Shown here piece by piece: positions 40,459-47,507 of a stretch of 55,820 nucleotides of DNA. Position 1 is the stretch's first letter, and each line of letters begins with the position of its first letter. The translations under genes were made by a program, and so were the position numbers. Source of the stretch: Chloroflexota bacterium (GTDB lineage Bacteria; Chloroflexota; Dehalococcoidia; SHYB01); the NCBI GenBank assembly GCA_016875535.1, contig VGPF01000009.1, forward strand, positions 1-55,820, given 5' to 3'. Below the pieces are notes generated by a model, which was not told the origin of the DNA, made no database searches, and was given only the letters and a program-made list of their open reading frames with translations.

Positions 40459-41139
40459 CTAGTATTGCAGGTCTAAGTGCGGCCTGCCCCACAAGTGCTT
40501 CCGAGTGAGCGAGAGGCTGCAGGCATCTATGAAGGCGTTGACCACTTCCGGGTCGTAGAGGCGTCCGCGCTCGGTGCGCAGGGTCTCCAGCGCCTTATTG
40601 ATCGGTTGCTCCGCCCCAGGCGCCGAACTGCCGATCATGCGGTCGAAGGCATCCACCACGGCGATGATGCGCGCCGCCAGGGGGATGGACTCTCCCCGCA
40701 GCCCGGCGGGGACGCCGCTGCCGTCCCAGTATTCGTGGTGAAAGAGCACCATCGGCATGATGGGCGTCAGCCACGGGAGGCTGGAGACGATTTTGGCGGC
40801 CCGCAGGCAGTGTGCTCCGTTGTCCGTGGGGCGCGGGGGATGCCCCGCCGGGCGGGCGGGAGCGGCTTCGCCGCCGATGATGCGGCCGATGTCATGCAGA
40901 TAGCCTGCGACCTCAAGCTGGTCAAGGTCGCCGCCGCGCATGCCTATCACCTCTCCCGTCTCCCGCGCCATCTTGCCCACGCGCAGCGAATGCGCCCACA
41001 GGAGCGGGTCCGCAAGGCCGGACATGCTCTCCAACAGCGGCATGACCTCATGCAGGCGAGCCCGCAAGCTCCCCGAATGCGACGGGGACTCCTCACGGAT
41101 GTACGAAAGATTTTCGGTCGGACGGACGAGTGTGGTCAT
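40459..41139 (-). CDS. HD-GYP-like phosphohydrolase, variant GVP motif
   Basis: A 226-residue HD-superfamily protein. H50 (AHSLRVGKMA), H82-D83 (YLHDIGRI), H110, and H134-H135 (LFHHEYWDG) supply the metal-binding residues, and LAARIIAVVDAFDRM follows. The signature loop is DGSGVPAGLRGE, Gly-Val-Pro in place of Gly-Tyr-Pro. HD-GYP proteins hydrolyse cyclic-di-GMP, and the variant may be altered in that activity. No receiver domain is attached. It starts 20 bases downstream of the response regulator, so it may be an output of the adjacent signalling cassette. Confidence 0.82.
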   Translation of the reverse strand: MTTLVRPTENLSYIREESPSHSGSLRARLHEVMPLLESMSGLADPLLWAHSLRVGKMARETGEVIGMRGGDLDQLEVAGYLHDIGRIIGGEAAPARPAGHPPRPTDNGAHCLRAAKIVSSLPWLTPIMPMVLFHHEYWDGSGVPAGLRGESIPLAARIIAVVDAFDRMIGSSAPGAEQPINKALETLRTERGRLYDPEVVNAFIDACSLSLTRKHLWGRPHLDLQY

Positions 41140-41159: not shown

Positions 41160-41861
41160 TTAATGAACGTCCTTCAGCAATCCGAGCTCTATGGCCTTGG
41201 CGACGGCCTGTGCCCGGCTCGGCTCCCCGAGCTTCAACAAGATATGTCCTACATGGGTGTTCACGGTCTTCACGGAAAGGTCGAAGTGCTCCGCTATGGC
41301 GCGGTCCGTGGCGCCCTGCTGGATCATCTCCAGGATCTCAAGTTCTCTGGCGGTGAGGTCTCGCAGCGGCGGGGTGGAGGTCTCTTCCTTCGGCTGATCG
41401 GCCAGGAAGTCTATGACCCGCGCACTCATAAGATCCGGCAGCGCCGCCTTGCCTTCGTGGACCGTATGGATGGCTTTTAAGAGCTCCTCGCCCGGCGCAT
41501 CCTTCAGGAGATAGCCTCGCGCGCCCGCCTTCACCATCGCCTTGACGTACTGGTCATAGTCGAATGCGGTGAGCGCCAGGCACTTGACTTCCGGGTGCTC
41601 CTTGCGCAGTGCCTTCACCAGGTCTATGCCGCTCCCGCCTTTAAGGCGGATATCAACCACGGCGACGTCCGGGCGGGTCTCCGCGATGACGGCAATCGCC
41701 TCCTGCACCGTCTCCGCCTCGCCGATGACCTGGATGGACGGGTCCTGGGTCAAGAGGTACTTGGTGCCCTCCCGGAACATCTGGTGATCGTCCACAAGGA
41801 CAACCCTAACCGTTCCGCCGGGTGCGTGCTCTCGCACATCGGATATAGACAGCGTCGCCAC
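41160..41861 (-). CDS. NarL/LuxR-type response regulator (intact)
   Basis: A 233-residue two-domain regulator. The receiver has the acidic pair D24-D25 (VVLVDDHQMFREG), phospho-acceptor D70 (VAVVDIRLKGGSG) and the Lys in YLLKDAPG. The C-terminal LuxR helix-turn-helix reads LTARELEILEMIQQGATDRAIAEHFDLSVKTVNTHVGHILLKL. GTG 41861 is chosen because an AAGGAGGGGG ribosome site lies seven bases before it. The ATG at 41885 would overlap that site. It lies 140 bases after the amber-interrupted regulator of the ComP-like kinase and could take its place. Confidence 0.93.
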   Translation of the reverse strand: MATLSISDVREHAPGGTVRVVLVDDHQMFREGTKYLLTQDPSIQVIGEAETVQEAIAVIAETRPDVAVVDIRLKGGSGIDLVKALRKEHPEVKCLALTAFDYDQYVKAMVKAGARGYLLKDAPGEELLKAIHTVHEGKAALPDLMSARVIDFLADQPKEETSTPPLRDLTARELEILEMIQQGATDRAIAEHFDLSVKTVNTHVGHILLKLGEPSRAQAVAKAIELGLLKDVH

Positions 41862-42001
41862 GTTGAATCCCCCTCCTTGCAGCATTCGCGTGAACTGTGT
41901 GCAGGCCAGGCTACCAGGGTTGGAAGTATAAAAAATCCGTAAGAAAAGCCTAGGTACGTACGTACAGGGTGAAGGGTTGGTAATCGGCAGTCCTTTGCCG
42001 A

Positions 42002-42661
42002 TTACTGCTTTTTGATATAGCCGTGCTCGATGGCGATGCGCACGGCCTCCGCCCGCGTGGTGGCTCCCAGCTTTGAAAAGATGTTCGCCACGTGGGACTC
42101 GGCGGTGCGCTGGGAGATTCCCAGGCGCTCCGCGATCTCCTGATTGCGCCGCCCCTGGTAGAGCAGCTCCAGCACTTCGATCTCCCGAATCGTCAGGTCG
42201 TCCGGGGTACGCGGGGAGTCTCGTCGCTCCCGGCTGAGGCTGTCCAAGACGGAGGCCGCGATCCGCCCCGGAAGAACCCCGTGCCCTTCGTAGACATCAT
42301 GGACCGCCTTGATGAGTTGCTCAGGCGGCGTATCTTTCAGGAGGTAGCCGCGCACGCCCGCTCTCGCCAGGGCGTCCACGTACTGCTCGAAGTCGTGGGC
42401 CGTCAGCACCAGCACCCGCGCCGTGGATCCCTTGCGCATCAGCGCCCTGGCCACATCTATCCCGCTGCCGTTCTTGAGCCGGATATCCAGAATCACCACG
42501 TCGGGGGCCAGCTCATCGGTCAGGCGCAAGGCCTCTTCCGCCGTCTCGGCCTCGCCCACCACCTAGATCCCTGGGTCTGCCTCAAGCAGCGCCTTGGTCC
42601 CAACGCGCACGAGGGCGTGGTCTTCCACCAGGAGGACGCGGATAGTGTGCCCTGTCGTCAT
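42002..42661 (-). pseudogene. ComA-like response regulator interrupted by amber codon 33
   Basis: From ATG 42661, which overlaps the kinase stop by four bases, the frame encodes a 219-residue NarL/LuxR regulator. It begins TIRVLLVEDHALVRVGTKALLEADPGI, then has TAG at 42565-42563 (codon 33), then VVGEAETAEEALRL. Phospho-acceptor D59 (VVILDIRLKNGSG), YLLKDTP and the LuxR helix-turn-helix (LTIREIEVLELLYQGRRNQEIAERLGISQRTAESHV) are intact. GAG to TAG by one substitution explains it. Restart at GTG 42562 would lack the acidic pocket and first beta-strand. Either recent decay, a sequencing error, or suppression. Confidence 0.82.
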
Positions 42662-44970
42662 ACGCTCCGTGCCGCCTCGGGGAGGGCAGAGTCCGCCTCC
42701 ACCGGGACGCTGATGGTAATCGTGGCGCCTTGGCCCGGCGCGCTCTCGATGGCAAGCGTCCCGCCCGCGTGGCGGACCCGCTCGCGCATGCCCAGGAGCC
42801 CAAGGTGGCCGTCCTTGGCCGCCCGCTCCCGTTCAGCCGCGCCGAAGCCTCTGCCGTTGTCCATGATCGAGAGGATGGCCTTACCTTGGGCGATTCTAAG
42901 GGATATCGTCGCCTGTGTCGCCCCTGAGTGCTTCACCACGTTGTTCAGGGCCTCCTGGGCGCAGCGGTAGATGGCCAACTCCGAGGCCGCGGGGAGGCGC
43001 GTCTCATCGGGAAAGCCGTCCAGGTCCATGGTGATGTGTACCGCCTCTTTTCCGGGCAGGTTCCGTGCCAGCCAGTCTATCGCATACCGCAGGCCCAGGT
43101 CGTCCAGCATCGGCGGGCGGAGGGCGTTGGTGATGGCGCGCAGCTCCGTGACGAGGGATTTGCCGACGTCAATCACCTTGTCAGAAGGCACGGCGGTTCT
43201 GGACAGGAAGATGGCCTGTTGCAACGGGCCGTCATGGAGGTCTATGGCCAGGCGCGCCCGCTCTTCTTCCTGGGCGGTCATCAGCCGCCCGTTCAAGTCG
43301 CGCAGCTCATCGCTCAGCTTGGAGCGCGCCAGCAGCATGCTGACCAGCGTGGCCATCGGCTCCATTAGCTTCACATCGTCATCCCGAAAGGCCTCCCCTC
43401 CCGATTTAGGCCCGAGAAGGAGCGCCGTGTCTTCATCCAGCACAAAGGCGAGGACCGGGTCGCTTTCCAACTGCCGGATAGCGCTGCCTCGAGAAGGCAG
43501 AAAGCCCGGACTGTCATAGGCGCGTCGCAGGCGCTGGGCGGACATGCCGCCCGAGATGATTTCGGAGGCCGATTGAGACCTGCCGGTGACGACGAGATAC
43601 CCCTCGAGTCTGGCGATCGCCTTCACTTGCTCCAACATGGAGACGACGACGTCTTTGGGCTGCCGCGCCCGCTGGGCCTCTTTGGACAACTCCACGATAG
43701 CCTCCCGGTAATCGAAGACATCCCGGTAGACGTAGGTGTCCGCCAGACGCTGCAAGATGGGGCGCAGGTAGGCGAAGGCGAGGGCGCCGAAGACAACGGC
43801 CCCGGAGGTGATGAGGAGGTCGTTGCGGCGCGATTCAAAGAGGTCCGGCTTGATGGTGATGCCGATCCCCACGAGCAGGATCATAACGACGAGCAACAGG
43901 CCGGAGAGGATGACGTACACGGCGCCGCGCTGGACCAGCCTCCGGATGCCGAGCATCTGGTATTGGAAGATGGAGTAGGCGAAGCCGGTGGGTATTGCCA
44001 GGAGACCGAGTGCGGCGATATCAGGGCGAACGATCTCATCCACGCCGCTGGCGATGGGAAGAAAGACGAGCAGGAGGAGCGGGATGAGTCCTAAAATTGT
44101 TGCAGACGAGACGATGGCCACAACAGAGCGCTCATTATGAGTGCTTGCGCGCCGATAGCCTGTTATGAGCGCGATGATTGAGAAGATGATGAGGAGGATG
44201 AAAGCTATCGAGATACAGGCCTGAAGCCAGGGATATATGTTCGGTTGTGCCGCTGCGGTAAGGATATATATTGCAGTAAGGCCGATACCCGACCAAAGGG
44301 TGATGCTCCGAACCTTTTCGACTAAGCGCGGAGTCCCAGGTGTGAGGCTGGTGTAGAAGGCGAATAGGGCCCAGGGCGAGAACCAGACCAAGGGGAATTG
44401 GAATCCTAGCGCCCAAACCGTGAGTGCTCCCTCAGATGCCGGGACCAACGCAAGGGAGCAGCCTGCGGCGAGTCCCATAAGCCAAAAACTTCGAGCCGAC
44501 TTGAGATCCGGACGTCTCCACAGCACTAAACTCCCGAACGTGACAAAAACAAGACCCAGTAAAGGGAGGGTGTACCGTGAGGCGCCCTCAACTGAACGCC
44601 CGGCCTCGGCTCTGATGGGTGCTTCACTGCCTGAGGCCCCAGGCCGGACCACGCTACGCGGCCGTTCCGTGCCTCCACCCGTTATCCGGAGGACCGGGTC
44701 GCCTACTCGGAGGCCTGCATCCCAACCTGCGCCCGCGGGCATGACCCAGGAGACGCAGTACGGAGCGGCCTCACACTCCTCCAATCGTATTTGCAGCAAA
44801 GGAGAGTCAGTGACAGAACGCTGAGCAAAGAAGAAGAGGCTCGCAAAGAGCAGAACACTGGAGAGGACTAAACCGCGGAGGAGGGGGAGGTTAGGGGAGG
44901 GTTGGCTTGAGGTTCGCGAGGATCCTTCGGCTTGTCCTCGAGAAGTGAGCGAAGCAACCGGGTCTGACAT
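42658..44970 (-). CDS. ComP-like membrane sensor histidine kinase
   Basis: A 770-residue sensor with the architecture of Bacillus ComP. It has an N-terminal membrane span (about 33-50), an extracytoplasmic PDZ-like segment (YCVSWVMPAGAGWDAGLRVGDPVLRI, about 70-96) and roughly eight further spans up to about residue 410. A cytoplasmic GAF-like region follows. The HisKA_3 dimerisation helix has phospho-acceptor H579 (AQEEERARLAIDLHDGPLQQ), and the HATPase domain has ALNNVVKHSGA, DNGRGF and GHLGLLGMRERV. It would sense an external signal, presumably the product of the two genes upstream. ATG 44970 overlaps the synthase gene by 103 bases, and no later in-frame ATG, GTG or TTG precedes the first span. 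Confidence 0.9.
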   Translation of the reverse strand: MSDPVASLTSRGQAEGSSRTSSQPSPNLPLLRGLVLSSVLLFASLFFFAQRSVTDSPLLQIRLEECEAAPYCVSWVMPAGAGWDAGLRVGDPVLRITGGGTERPRSVVRPGASGSEAPIRAEAGRSVEGASRYTLPLLGLVFVTFGSLVLWRRPDLKSARSFWLMGLAAGCSLALVPASEGALTVWALGFQFPLVWFSPWALFAFYTSLTPGTPRLVEKVRSITLWSGIGLTAIYILTAAAQPNIYPWLQACISIAFILLIIFSIIALITGYRRASTHNERSVVAIVSSATILGLIPLLLLVFLPIASGVDEIVRPDIAALGLLAIPTGFAYSIFQYQMLGIRRLVQRGAVYVILSGLLLVVMILLVGIGITIKPDLFESRRNDLLITSGAVVFGALAFAYLRPILQRLADTYVYRDVFDYREAIVELSKEAQRARQPKDVVVSMLEQVKAIARLEGYLVVTGRSQSASEIISGGMSAQRLRRAYDSPGFLPSRGSAIRQLESDPVLAFVLDEDTALLLGPKSGGEAFRDDDVKLMEPMATLVSMLLARSKLSDELRDLNGRLMTAQEEERARLAIDLHDGPLQQAIFLSRTAVPSDKVIDVGKSLVTELRAITNALRPPMLDDLGLRYAIDWLARNLPGKEAVHITMDLDGFPDETRLPAASELAIYRCAQEALNNVVKHSGATQATISLRIAQGKAILSIMDNGRGFGAAERERAAKDGHLGLLGMRERVRHAGGTLAIESAPGQGATITISVPVEADSALPEAARSV

Positions 44971-45854
44971 CCGTGCTTTTCCAATCGTTCCAGGATTGCT
45001 TCGGCCCTCATTCTATACCAGTGAGCAAGCGTGAGGGTGAACCGAATCGCCCCGGCCGTCTCGATTGCAATGCGCACCTGCATCTCGCCCGTTGGATCCA
45101 TTCCCCCGGCGTTGAACGCCGAGCGGCAGGCATCCAGTTCTGGGCTGTCACCCTTGGCGTGCAGGAAATAGGCGATCGGCACGGTTTTCTTTTTGAGGGC
45201 GATGTCGCTGGTGCCTGGTGAGAGTATCGAAGCGTCTGACGCATCGTCGAGCAGTTGGCTATACGTTCCAAAGTGCAGGCCGAATGCCGCTAGCTCTGAA
45301 GTTACTGAGGTGCTTGCCCCTGCAGCCAGCGCGATCGCTTTGCCGATGGCCCCCGCCTTTGCTTCGGTCATCTCTTTCGCCTCCTCCAGCGATGGCGTCT
45401 CATTGCCCTGGAGGTCAAGATCCGCCTGTTGCCCGGAGCAAGCGGTCACGAAACTGGAGTAGACCTGACTCCAATCTACTTGGAGACCACTCGCTGCTCT
45501 GGATGCTTCGAAGAGATGGGAGGCAAGGAACAGAAGCGCCGGGCCGATTTGCTGATCGGCGTTCGTGCTGTGCCTATCGTGGTCTGCTAATGCATCAAAG
45601 ACATGGCTGGCCGATACGATGACTTCGGTCGCTGCGGCGGCTTTGGCACCAACCTGAAGCTGCTTCCCTCCTCCAGCAAAAAACGCGCCCAACGCGATCT
45701 GCGTTGGGCGTAAGGGCGTCCTTTCGTGGAGCGGGTGCGGGAACTTTTTAAGGGTTGTCTCTATGCGCTCTCGAAAGGAGGGCGCGACTGCGCCGCTGGC
45801 CAGGGCTTCAAGGATCGAGGTTTTGACCAGCAGCGCAGTCTCATGAGCGAGCAT
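44868..45854 (-). CDS. ComQ-like polyprenyl-synthase-family protein
   Basis: A 328-residue all-helical isoprenyl-diphosphate-synthase relative. The second Asp-rich motif is classical (LLDDASD, D203-D207). The first is degenerate, HVFDALADHD (D87, D91, D93). GGGKQLQVG near residue 61 lies where the Arg/Lys diphosphate contacts are expected. This half-degenerate pattern is what ComQ shows, the enzyme that prenylates a Trp of the ComX pheromone. ATG 45854 follows the stop of the small peptide gene with no gap (TAAATG), and the 3' end overlaps the ComP-like kinase gene. A plain prenyl synthase is the alternative, but context favours ComQ. Confidence 0.8.
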   Translation of the reverse strand: MLAHETALLVKTSILEALASGAVAPSFRERIETTLKKFPHPLHERTPLRPTQIALGAFFAGGGKQLQVGAKAAAATEVIVSASHVFDALADHDRHSTNADQQIGPALLFLASHLFEASRAASGLQVDWSQVYSSFVTACSGQQADLDLQGNETPSLEEAKEMTEAKAGAIGKAIALAAGASTSVTSELAAFGLHFGTYSQLLDDASDASILSPGTSDIALKKKTVPIAYFLHAKGDSPELDACRSAFNAGGMDPTGEMQVRIAIETAGAIRFTLTLAHWYRMRAEAILERLEKHGCQTRLLRSLLEDKPKDPREPQANPPLTSPSSAV

Positions 45855-45995
45855 TTAGATCCAACCGGCCTCTTGGGCGCGCAGGACGGTCCCGCTGACT
45901 TCGGTCGGGCGTGCGGCGGCGCCGGCCAGGGCGAGCGTGGCTTCCTTCTTCCCGATCAGCATCTCGAGCGCTGCGCGAACTGCATCCTTCTGCAT
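45855..45995 (-). CDS. ComX-like pre-pheromone peptide (46 aa)
   Basis: A 46-residue peptide starting MQKDAVRAALEMLIGKK and ending LRAQEAGWI. ATG 45995 has GGGAG five bases upstream. Its stop abuts the synthase start exactly. The size, an N-terminal amphipathic helix, and a single Trp at the penultimate position are what a ComX precursor needs, since ComX is cut to a short C-terminal peptide and prenylated on Trp. Overall sequence similarity to Bacillus ComX is not expected, as ComX is hypervariable. Identity is inferred from context and the Trp. A longer frame from 46043 would overlap the upstream repeats. Confidence 0.65.
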   Translation of the reverse strand: MQKDAVRAALEMLIGKKEATLALAGAAARPTEVSGTVLRAQEAGWI

Positions 45996-46029
45996 GGTGT
46001 CTCCCGGACATGTGTATTTCCCGCTCTGC

Positions 46030-46071
46030 GGGATGGCACCCATTCAACCAGGGGGATGGCACCCACTCAAC
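46030..46071. repeat. Two 19-bp direct repeats upstream of the peptide gene
   Basis: GGGATGGCACCCATTCAAC (46030-46048) and GGGATGGCACCCACTCAAC (46053-46071) differ at one base and repeat with a 23-bp period, about two helical turns. They end 34 bases before the peptide ATG and could be tandem binding sites for the cassette's response regulator. The rest of the 240-base spacer 45996-46235 shows no assigned feature. Confidence 0.7.
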
Positions 46072-46235: not shown

Positions 46236-47507
46236 ATGGCTGAAAACAGTCAAACGACCCTTTCCAAAACGGAACAGAACCTCTGGAACGCCATCGTGAG
46301 CGAGTCCATGGCCCAGCTCAAGTATTCCGCCTTCGCCCTCAAAGCGCTGGAGGAGGGCCACCCGGAGGTCGCTCAGGTCTTCCAGGAGACAGCCGGCGCG
46401 GAGAACATCCACGGCATCAACCAGCTTAAGACCGCCGGGGCCGTGAAGTCCACGGCGGAAAACCTTCGCAGTGTCACCACCGGCGAGGCCAAAGAGATCG
46501 CCTCGCTCTACCCCAGGATGATCCGGGATGCCCTGGATGAAGGGCGTATGGATGCCGCCCAGGCCTTTGCCGTGGCCATGGATCGGGAGCGCTACCACCT
46601 GGAGAGCTTCATGCGCGCCCTGGACCTGCTGGAGAAGAAGATGGGCAAACAGCCGGAGGCCGCGCCTTCCATCGCCCTGCCCCCGCGTCCCATGTCTATC
46701 CCTGAAGCCCAGGTGCAGCAGATGGCCTCGGCCGCTCCTGCGATGGAACCTAACAGGCCTGTGGCTCCTATAGAGGCAACGGCCCCCGCCTATGGCCGCG
46801 CCATGCGCGAGGTGGAGCGCGAAAAGACGCGCCTGGCCGCCGTCCGCCGCATCCGCGAGGTCGTCTTCGGCGCGCAGGATGGGCTGATGAGCACGTTAGC
46901 CCTGGTGACCGCCCTTTCCGCCTCGGTAAGCGCCAACTCCACCGTCGTCGTCGGTGGACTTGCCACCGCCCTTGCGGGCATGGTCTCCATGGCCACCGGC
47001 ACCTACCTTGGCTCCAAAGCTGAGCAAGAGGCGTTCAAGGCTGAGATTGAGAAAGAGGCCAAAGAACTGGAGGCTAACCCCGCTGAAGAGATGGCGGAGC
47101 TTGTCTTCCTCTACCACCAGCAGGGCATGTCTTACGCTCAGGCGCGCGACTTGGCGGAGCACATCGCGGCCGATAAGGAACTGTGGCTTCGCACCCTGGT
47201 GGAGAAAGAGCTCGGCATCAGCCCTGACGTCCTTGGCAACCCGGTGAAAGATGCCCTCACCATGGGCGCTGTCTTCATCCTCGCGGCCATGGTCCCCATT
47301 CTGCCCTTCTTCTGGATGGAGGGGAATGCCGCCATCGGCGTTGCGGCCGGGCTTGCGCTCACTGCGCTCTTCGGCCTGGGCACGGCCAAGGGCAGAGTGG
47401 TGAAGCGCAGGCCCTTGATGCAGGGCCTGGAAGTGCTCATCATCGGCACCGCGGCGGCCGGCGTCGGCTATCTCCTCGGCGAAGGCATCCCCAGGCTCAT
47501 CAACTAA
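46236..47507 (+). CDS. MbfA-like ferritin-domain/VIT1 iron exporter
   Basis: A 423-residue fusion. Residues 1-140 form a rubrerythrin-like four-helix ferritin domain with di-iron residues in ESMAQLKYSAFALKALEEGH, ETAGAENIHG and MDRERYHLESF. A Pro/Ala linker follows, and from about residue 200 a CCC1/VIT1 transporter: REVVFGAQDGLMSTLALVTAL, the GLATALAGMVSMATGTYLGSKAE helix and three C-terminal spans. MbfA exports ferrous iron and protects against peroxide stress. ATG 46236 has GAGGGAGG upstream. Confidence 0.92.
   Translation: MAENSQTTLSKTEQNLWNAIVSESMAQLKYSAFALKALEEGHPEVAQVFQETAGAENIHGINQLKTAGAVKSTAENLRSVTTGEAKEIASLYPRMIRDALDEGRMDAAQAFAVAMDRERYHLESFMRALDLLEKKMGKQPEAAPSIALPPRPMSIPEAQVQQMASAAPAMEPNRPVAPIEATAPAYGRAMREVEREKTRLAAVRRIREVVFGAQDGLMSTLALVTALSASVSANSTVVVGGLATALAGMVSMATGTYLGSKAEQEAFKAEIEKEAKELEANPAEEMAELVFLYHQQGMSYAQARDLAEHIAADKELWLRTLVEKELGISPDVLGNPVKDALTMGAVFILAAMVPILPFFWMEGNAAIGVAAGLALTALFGLGTAKGRVVKRRPLMQGLEVLIIGTAAAGVGYLLGEGIPRLIN

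Follow-up and report, generated by a model that had tools for sequence, protein, structure and literature searches.

A likely Trp-prenylated peptide pheromone precursor gene in a ComXQPA/PalXQP-like operon of a Dehalococcoidia bacterium

The stretch of DNA analysed here (hereafter the window) comprises 55,820 nt of contig VGPF01000009.1 (assembly GCA_016875535.1; Chloroflexota; Dehalococcoidia; SHYB01) and carries, all on the minus strand, a series of genes in the order X-Q-P-A-A. The first is a comX/palX-like precursor gene (45855..45995), recognized by its codon usage, its position and its Trp; read from 45995 down to 45855, it gives the 46 amino acids MQKDAVRAALEMLIGKKEATLALAGAAARPTEVSGTVLRAQEAGWI, which end in AGWI and contain a single Trp, in the penultimate position. 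Direct reading places a ribosome-binding site GGGAG (46001..46005, minus strand) 5 bases 5′ of the ATG, and the TAA (45857-45855) abuts the ATG of the next gene at 45854 with no gap. These features, i.e. a ribosome site of its own, a zero-base junction with the synthase and one Trp a residue away from the C-terminus, had been described in a first-pass annotation of this DNA, and all of them hold. An alternative in-frame ATG at 46043 would give a peptide of 62 amino acids. The adjoining gene (44868..45854) encodes a predicted comQ-like Trp prenyltransferase (Q) of 328 amino acids with an isoprenoid synthase fold, assigned from its match to PF00348, its place in a tree, its motifs and its fold. 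It is followed by the gene of a comP-like receptor histidine kinase of 770 amino acids (42658..44970), which, according to domain scan and alignments, consists of a PDZ-like loop, a transmembrane sensor, a weak HisKA_3 domain and a HATPase domain; the 103-base overlap of this frame with comQ suggests that the true kinase start may lie further in. Two genes for comA-like NarL-type response regulators, identified by their domains, come next. The ATG of the first (42002..42661) overlaps the kinase stop, and an in-frame TAG interrupts it at 42563-42565; the second (41160..41885) is intact. The TAG lies 32 codons in, with a GTG directly after it, and could be genuine, allow a restart or result from an error of assembly. 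In view of it, decay of the system is conceivable, as is a faulty assembly at this place. Twenty bases past regulator 2 lies the gene of a stand-alone HD-GYP-like protein (40459..41139, minus strand), with HD and HHE...GVP found by domain scan and motif reading, which we infer to belong to the operon. On the other side, the operon adjoins a divergent gene (46236-47507) with rubrerythrin and VIT1 domains, of the iron transporter type.

The codon usage of the small ORF amounts to 0.43 bits per codon; 245 stretches of 46 codons from true genes average 0.40, and 5 out of 176 spurious ORFs reach its score. As to the Trp, it is found in the last two residues of 19 out of 248 background SD-preceded ORFs, and in the last 12 of 64 of them, so that a last-two Trp is by itself no strong signal in this background. 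When compared with a profile of seven related precursors, the window peptide ranked 8th of 405 (the candidate and 404 ORFs of the window, 394 sequences being scored in the profile search) with a non-significant E value of 1, and its best pairwise match to these precursors (one of seven tested) was equalled by 33 of 2000 shuffles; its kinship in sequence with the other precursors was therefore rejected. It is also shorter than they are (46 versus 67-76 amino acids), and it matched no Pfam family and no NCBIfam family at E≤1. The allele is absent from the three related genomes searched, one of the same genus and two of the same family, where matches reach only the level of ordinary synthases. 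The observed frame is confirmed as a gene-like ORF, and what speaks for the window precursor is its position, its Trp and its coding signal; the main weakness is that the peptide matches neither the nearest precursor group nor any family.

The nature of the enzyme was approached with a maximum-likelihood tree of 34 rows, among which were 11 ordinary synthases and two Bacillus ComQ rows. The 11 ordinary synthases are separated by a 100/100 branch from Bacillus ComQ and the Qs of Chloroflexota; three rows pre-labelled ‘IDS’ (L075, L076 and L078) fell on the Q side, and all three have a precursor ORF and a receptor. Most Q rows and Bacillus ComQ, unlike the ordinary synthases, have a FARM of the FDD(I/V)ED type (FDDIED) and QxxND replacing the second Asp-rich motif. 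With a branch length of 2.19, the window Q is a long-branched member of a five-row clade (100/98; the window, L002, L041, L044 and L048), in which the situation is the reverse of that in Bacillus ComQ: the FARM is degraded to DxxAD and the SARM, QxxDDxxD, is intact. BLASTP of the window Q against ComQ of B. spizizenii gives an E value of 6e-7, and its AlphaFold model (pLDDT 75.5) matches isoprenoid synthases (best E value 2.6e-8); the host genome holds other polyprenyl synthases. A glutamine before the SARM is said, in the accessible part of a review (PMC13290415), to be typical of Trp prenyltransferases, but it does not discriminate here, since ordinary synthases in our alignment carry it too. 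For the Bacilli, A1 was rejected and left unused, because an ordinary synthase of B. spizizenii gets a score no lower than that of comQ. From tree and BLASTP, the window Q is predicted to be a ComQ-type Trp prenyltransferase with a degenerate FARM rather than an ordinary synthase.

The window synthase was searched for in 60 relatives and in 393 genomes of the class. This brought up loci, in Dehalococcoidia/Chloroflexota MAGs according to the named records, with a short ORF, then the synthase and, directly after it, a large membrane receptor; authentic comQ loci of Bacillus, complete with comX, comP and comA, were matched in the same scan. The system is present in at least 16 of the 393 class genomes (G000, G011, G015, G022, G035, G042, G084, G180, G199, G202, G210, G218, G228, G262, G346 and G380) and in at least three Chloroflexota genomes outside the class (G465, G542 and G570, from 400-genome samples). 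These counts are lower bounds, because only part of the weaker hits was read, and because ComQ-like synthases proved not to be set off from ordinary ones by a limit near 217 bits: L078 (205 bits), L075 (213) and L076 (212) are ComQ-like, and this border was rejected. One script, run on all loci, served for the precursor count, which covers 21 distinct readable ComQ-like loci, the window included; G035, whose contig starts within the synthase, has no readable precursor. All 21 loci have, ending near the synthase start, an SD-preceded ORF of 46-76 amino acids with a Trp in its last 12 residues, as opposed to 3 out of 35 control loci with ordinary synthases, none of which has a Trp in the last two residues (0/35). 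At 17 of the 21 loci the Trp is among the last two residues (16 penultimate, one last), with tails including NWL, TWS, FWL, YWL, FWM, LWL, GWL, GWF, PWV, AWF, QWS, QWT, EWT, WWWS, GGW and GWI; in the other four (DWSAPEP, IWAAKAPAEQSY, DWMAPPQLALAE and IWVAPPEGVAAPA) it lies further in. The first-pass annotation had expected homologues of a signal gene to combine a conserved N-terminus, a variable C-terminus and an invariant Trp. A Trp occurs in 21/21 loci, and the main subgroup has just this pattern of conserved leader, variable tail and invariant Trp, but the comparison with related precursors (E = 1) gives no sign of a conserved leader in the window peptide. Poor resemblance to ComX, put down in that annotation to hypervariability, is real and has a further side. 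Homology of the leaders to ComX was rejected (10% probability in an hhalign comparison with a Bacillus ComX), and PF05952 (ComX) was absent among the Pfam matches of 12 related precursors, whereas all 12 main-subgroup leaders match the NHLP clan model NF038399 (best E value 5.6e-12, at a loose limit of E≤10) and three of the 12 match Pfam Frankia_peptide. With NHLP matches in 12/12 and a mere 10% for ComX, these leaders look more like PalX of Paenibacillus alvei. The suggestion that the position of the Trp would make a new pherotype was not upheld, and the penultimate Trp was rejected as a novelty, since several Bacilli ComX have it too (KYWT, GYWK, DVWN and YFWA).

The Q-receptor pair is conserved in families far apart, and all 21 receptors that we scanned, that of the window included, adjoin Q. 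The window kinase aligns with ComP of B. spizizenii over 757 positions (E 2e-32), and the sensor halves alone match Bacillus ComP by BLASTP (E 3e-4) and by profile comparison (99.7%, E 3e-27); a crude hydropathy scan finds 7 transmembrane segments in the window receptor versus 10 in B. spizizenii ComP. Judging from these comparisons, the membrane half of the receptor is homologous to Bacillus ComP. Behind it, domain scans distinguish four types of output: NarL-type kinases in eight receptors (window, G015, G346, G180, G202, G542, G465 and G570), HisKA being of the HisKA_3 kind, weak in most of them and not listed for G570; HisKA (EnvZ-type) kinases in four (L063, L064, L065 and G011); hybrid kinases with PAS and receiver domains in six (L066, L067, L068, G199, G210 and G084); and GAF plus HD-GYP, without a kinase domain, in three (G042, G022 and G035). 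In the last three the HD-GYP domain is intact in that it retains HD and HHE-x(5)-GYP, and their sensor halves match Bacillus ComP (99.7%, E 1e-25). The three fusions of ComP-like sensor, GAF and HD-GYP lie at L111:6460-8868, L099:3005-5251 and L101:787-3150, adjoining ComQ-like genes.

Upstream of the window precursor, a genome motif search points to a possible regulator site, two 18-base direct repeats TTGARTGGGTGCCATCCC (46030-46047 and 46053-46070, minus strand), situated 35 to 75 bases before the gene and constituting the only two matches in the genome with at most one mismatch. A different motif, AGGGTTNYCACRTANGGG, is shared by G015, G180 and G202 (L112, L114 and L115), again before the precursor; on its far side the region is flanked, in these three loci, by a divergent response-regulator gene. 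A wider regulon marked by this motif was rejected, because matches with 0-1 mismatch occur only before the precursor in these genomes, and those with two mismatches are about as frequent as for a reversed control. Tandem repeats upstream were also dropped, none being found. We regard the upstream motifs as leads for an autoregulation of the precursor, not as evidence.

The computations show the order of the genes, the coding signal of the ORF, the conservation of the Trp across loci and how Q relates to ComQ and the sensor to ComP; on this basis we think it likely that the gene encodes a Trp-prenylated peptide pheromone precursor in a ComXQPA/PalXQP-like operon; put simply, it would very probably make a fat-tagged cell-to-cell signal, of the kind known from Bacillus, in a distant phylum. 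After its synthesis, the precursor would be presented to the ComQ-like enzyme, the product of the gene directly downstream, and this enzyme would attach a prenyl chain to the penultimate Trp; some protease and exporter would release a short C-terminal peptide; once lipidated and outside, this could bind the PDZ/multi-transmembrane sensor of the ComP-like receptor, and the kinase would then pass the signal to one NarL-type regulator or to both; the promoter of the precursor gene, with its repeats, may in turn be a target of these regulators. Prenylation, export, binding and autoregulation are what we infer from sequence, and it counts against the pheromone reading that no protease, exporter or ligand was found. 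The core of the initial proposal, a prenylated pheromone precursor accompanied by its prenyltransferase and its receptor, receives good support from the related loci; the proposal as a whole, with its points on the Trp position and on ComX resemblance, is supported in part. Another possibility is that the prenylated peptide is, as in a PalX-like RiPP, an effector (e.g. an antimicrobial) that the receptor senses only for self-regulation or immunity; the 12/12 leaders matching the NHLP RiPP clan, as PalX of P. alvei does, and the cluster of PalX with a kinase and PalQ (described in the accessible text of PMC10853753) speak for it, but all 21 scanned receptors adjoin Q, the sensors match ComP and no ABC exporter or immunity gene was noticed in the ORF lists, read without systematic annotation, so that we deem it unlikely. 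A short ORF arisen by chance, followed by a lipid-biosynthesis enzyme that lies beside the kinase by accident, would fit the 19/248 background ORFs with a last-two Trp and the absence of significant similarity between the window peptide and related precursors, but is highly improbable in view of the coding-like codon usage, the 21/21 ComQ-like loci versus 3/35 controls, the grouping of Q with ComQ and the conservation of the Q-receptor pair across distant families.

Returning to the pheromone reading, its broader form, that Chloroflexota use prenylated peptide pheromones and that in the course of evolution a single ComP-type sensor has been coupled to four or more outputs, the HD-GYP one being a c-di-GMP phosphodiesterase, seems to us somewhat better than an even bet. 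If true, there would be lineages in which a lipidated peptide directly controls c-di-GMP, through a receptor without kinase. What is new, then, is the occurrence of candidate ComXQP systems in Dehalococcoidia and in three other Chloroflexota genomes, the combination of this gene order with leaders of NHLP type (main subgroup), the inversion of the Asp-rich motifs seen in the window clade, and the linkage of a single sensor type to four kinds of output, three of the receptors being kinase-less fusions to an intact HD-GYP domain. The finding would extend prenylated-peptide quorum sensing past the Firmicutes into a deep-branching, mostly uncultured phylum; three of the carriers, which belong to one genus in the class, are single-contig genomes. 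It also offers about twenty natural enzyme-substrate pairs, with the Trp at differing distances from the C-terminus; thanks to these pairs, and to receptors with varied outputs behind a constant sensor, signal specificity and sensor-output coupling become directly testable.

In the literature, our searches, which left subscription papers and preprints aside, found no report of the system in Chloroflexota and none joining HD-GYP to ComX/ComP or to peptide pheromones; the accessible parts of the PalQ paper (PMC10853753) and of the review (PMC13290415) do not mention Chloroflexota, and a 2014 census, as far as its accessible text goes, had comQXPA in Firmicutes only (PMC4008528). With ComQXPA of Bacillus subtilis and other Firmicutes, as described in that same text, the window operon shares a ComQ-like enzyme, a short Trp-bearing precursor, a ComP-like PDZ/multi-transmembrane receptor with HisKA_3/HATPase, a NarL-type regulator and the use of one strand. 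It differs by its phylum, by leaders without a ComX match, by X being upstream of Q (X-Q-P-A-A) instead of between Q and P, and by the window clade having the SARM intact and the FARM degraded, the reverse of ComQ. With PalX-PalQ-PalP of Paenibacillus alvei (PMC10853753, accessible text) there are in common a precursor of NHLP type (as found here for the main subgroup), a linked histidine kinase, a Trp prenyltransferase of isoprenoid synthase fold (here predicted) and a Trp at or near the C-terminus, the likeness being judged from the published description. PalQ needs the Trp as last residue, according to the accessible part of the review (PMC13290415), whereas it is last in only 1 of our 21 precursors and penultimate in the window. 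Among the close systems are also the non-subtilis Bacilli loci (L087-L096), which also have a penultimate Trp (KYWT, GYWK, DVWN, YFWA and SKWV); they are from Firmicutes, and in L087, L088, L092, L094 and L096 the precursor comes after Q, but in L089, with its tail SKWV, the precursor lies upstream of the ComQ-like gene, in the same X-Q-P order as in the window.
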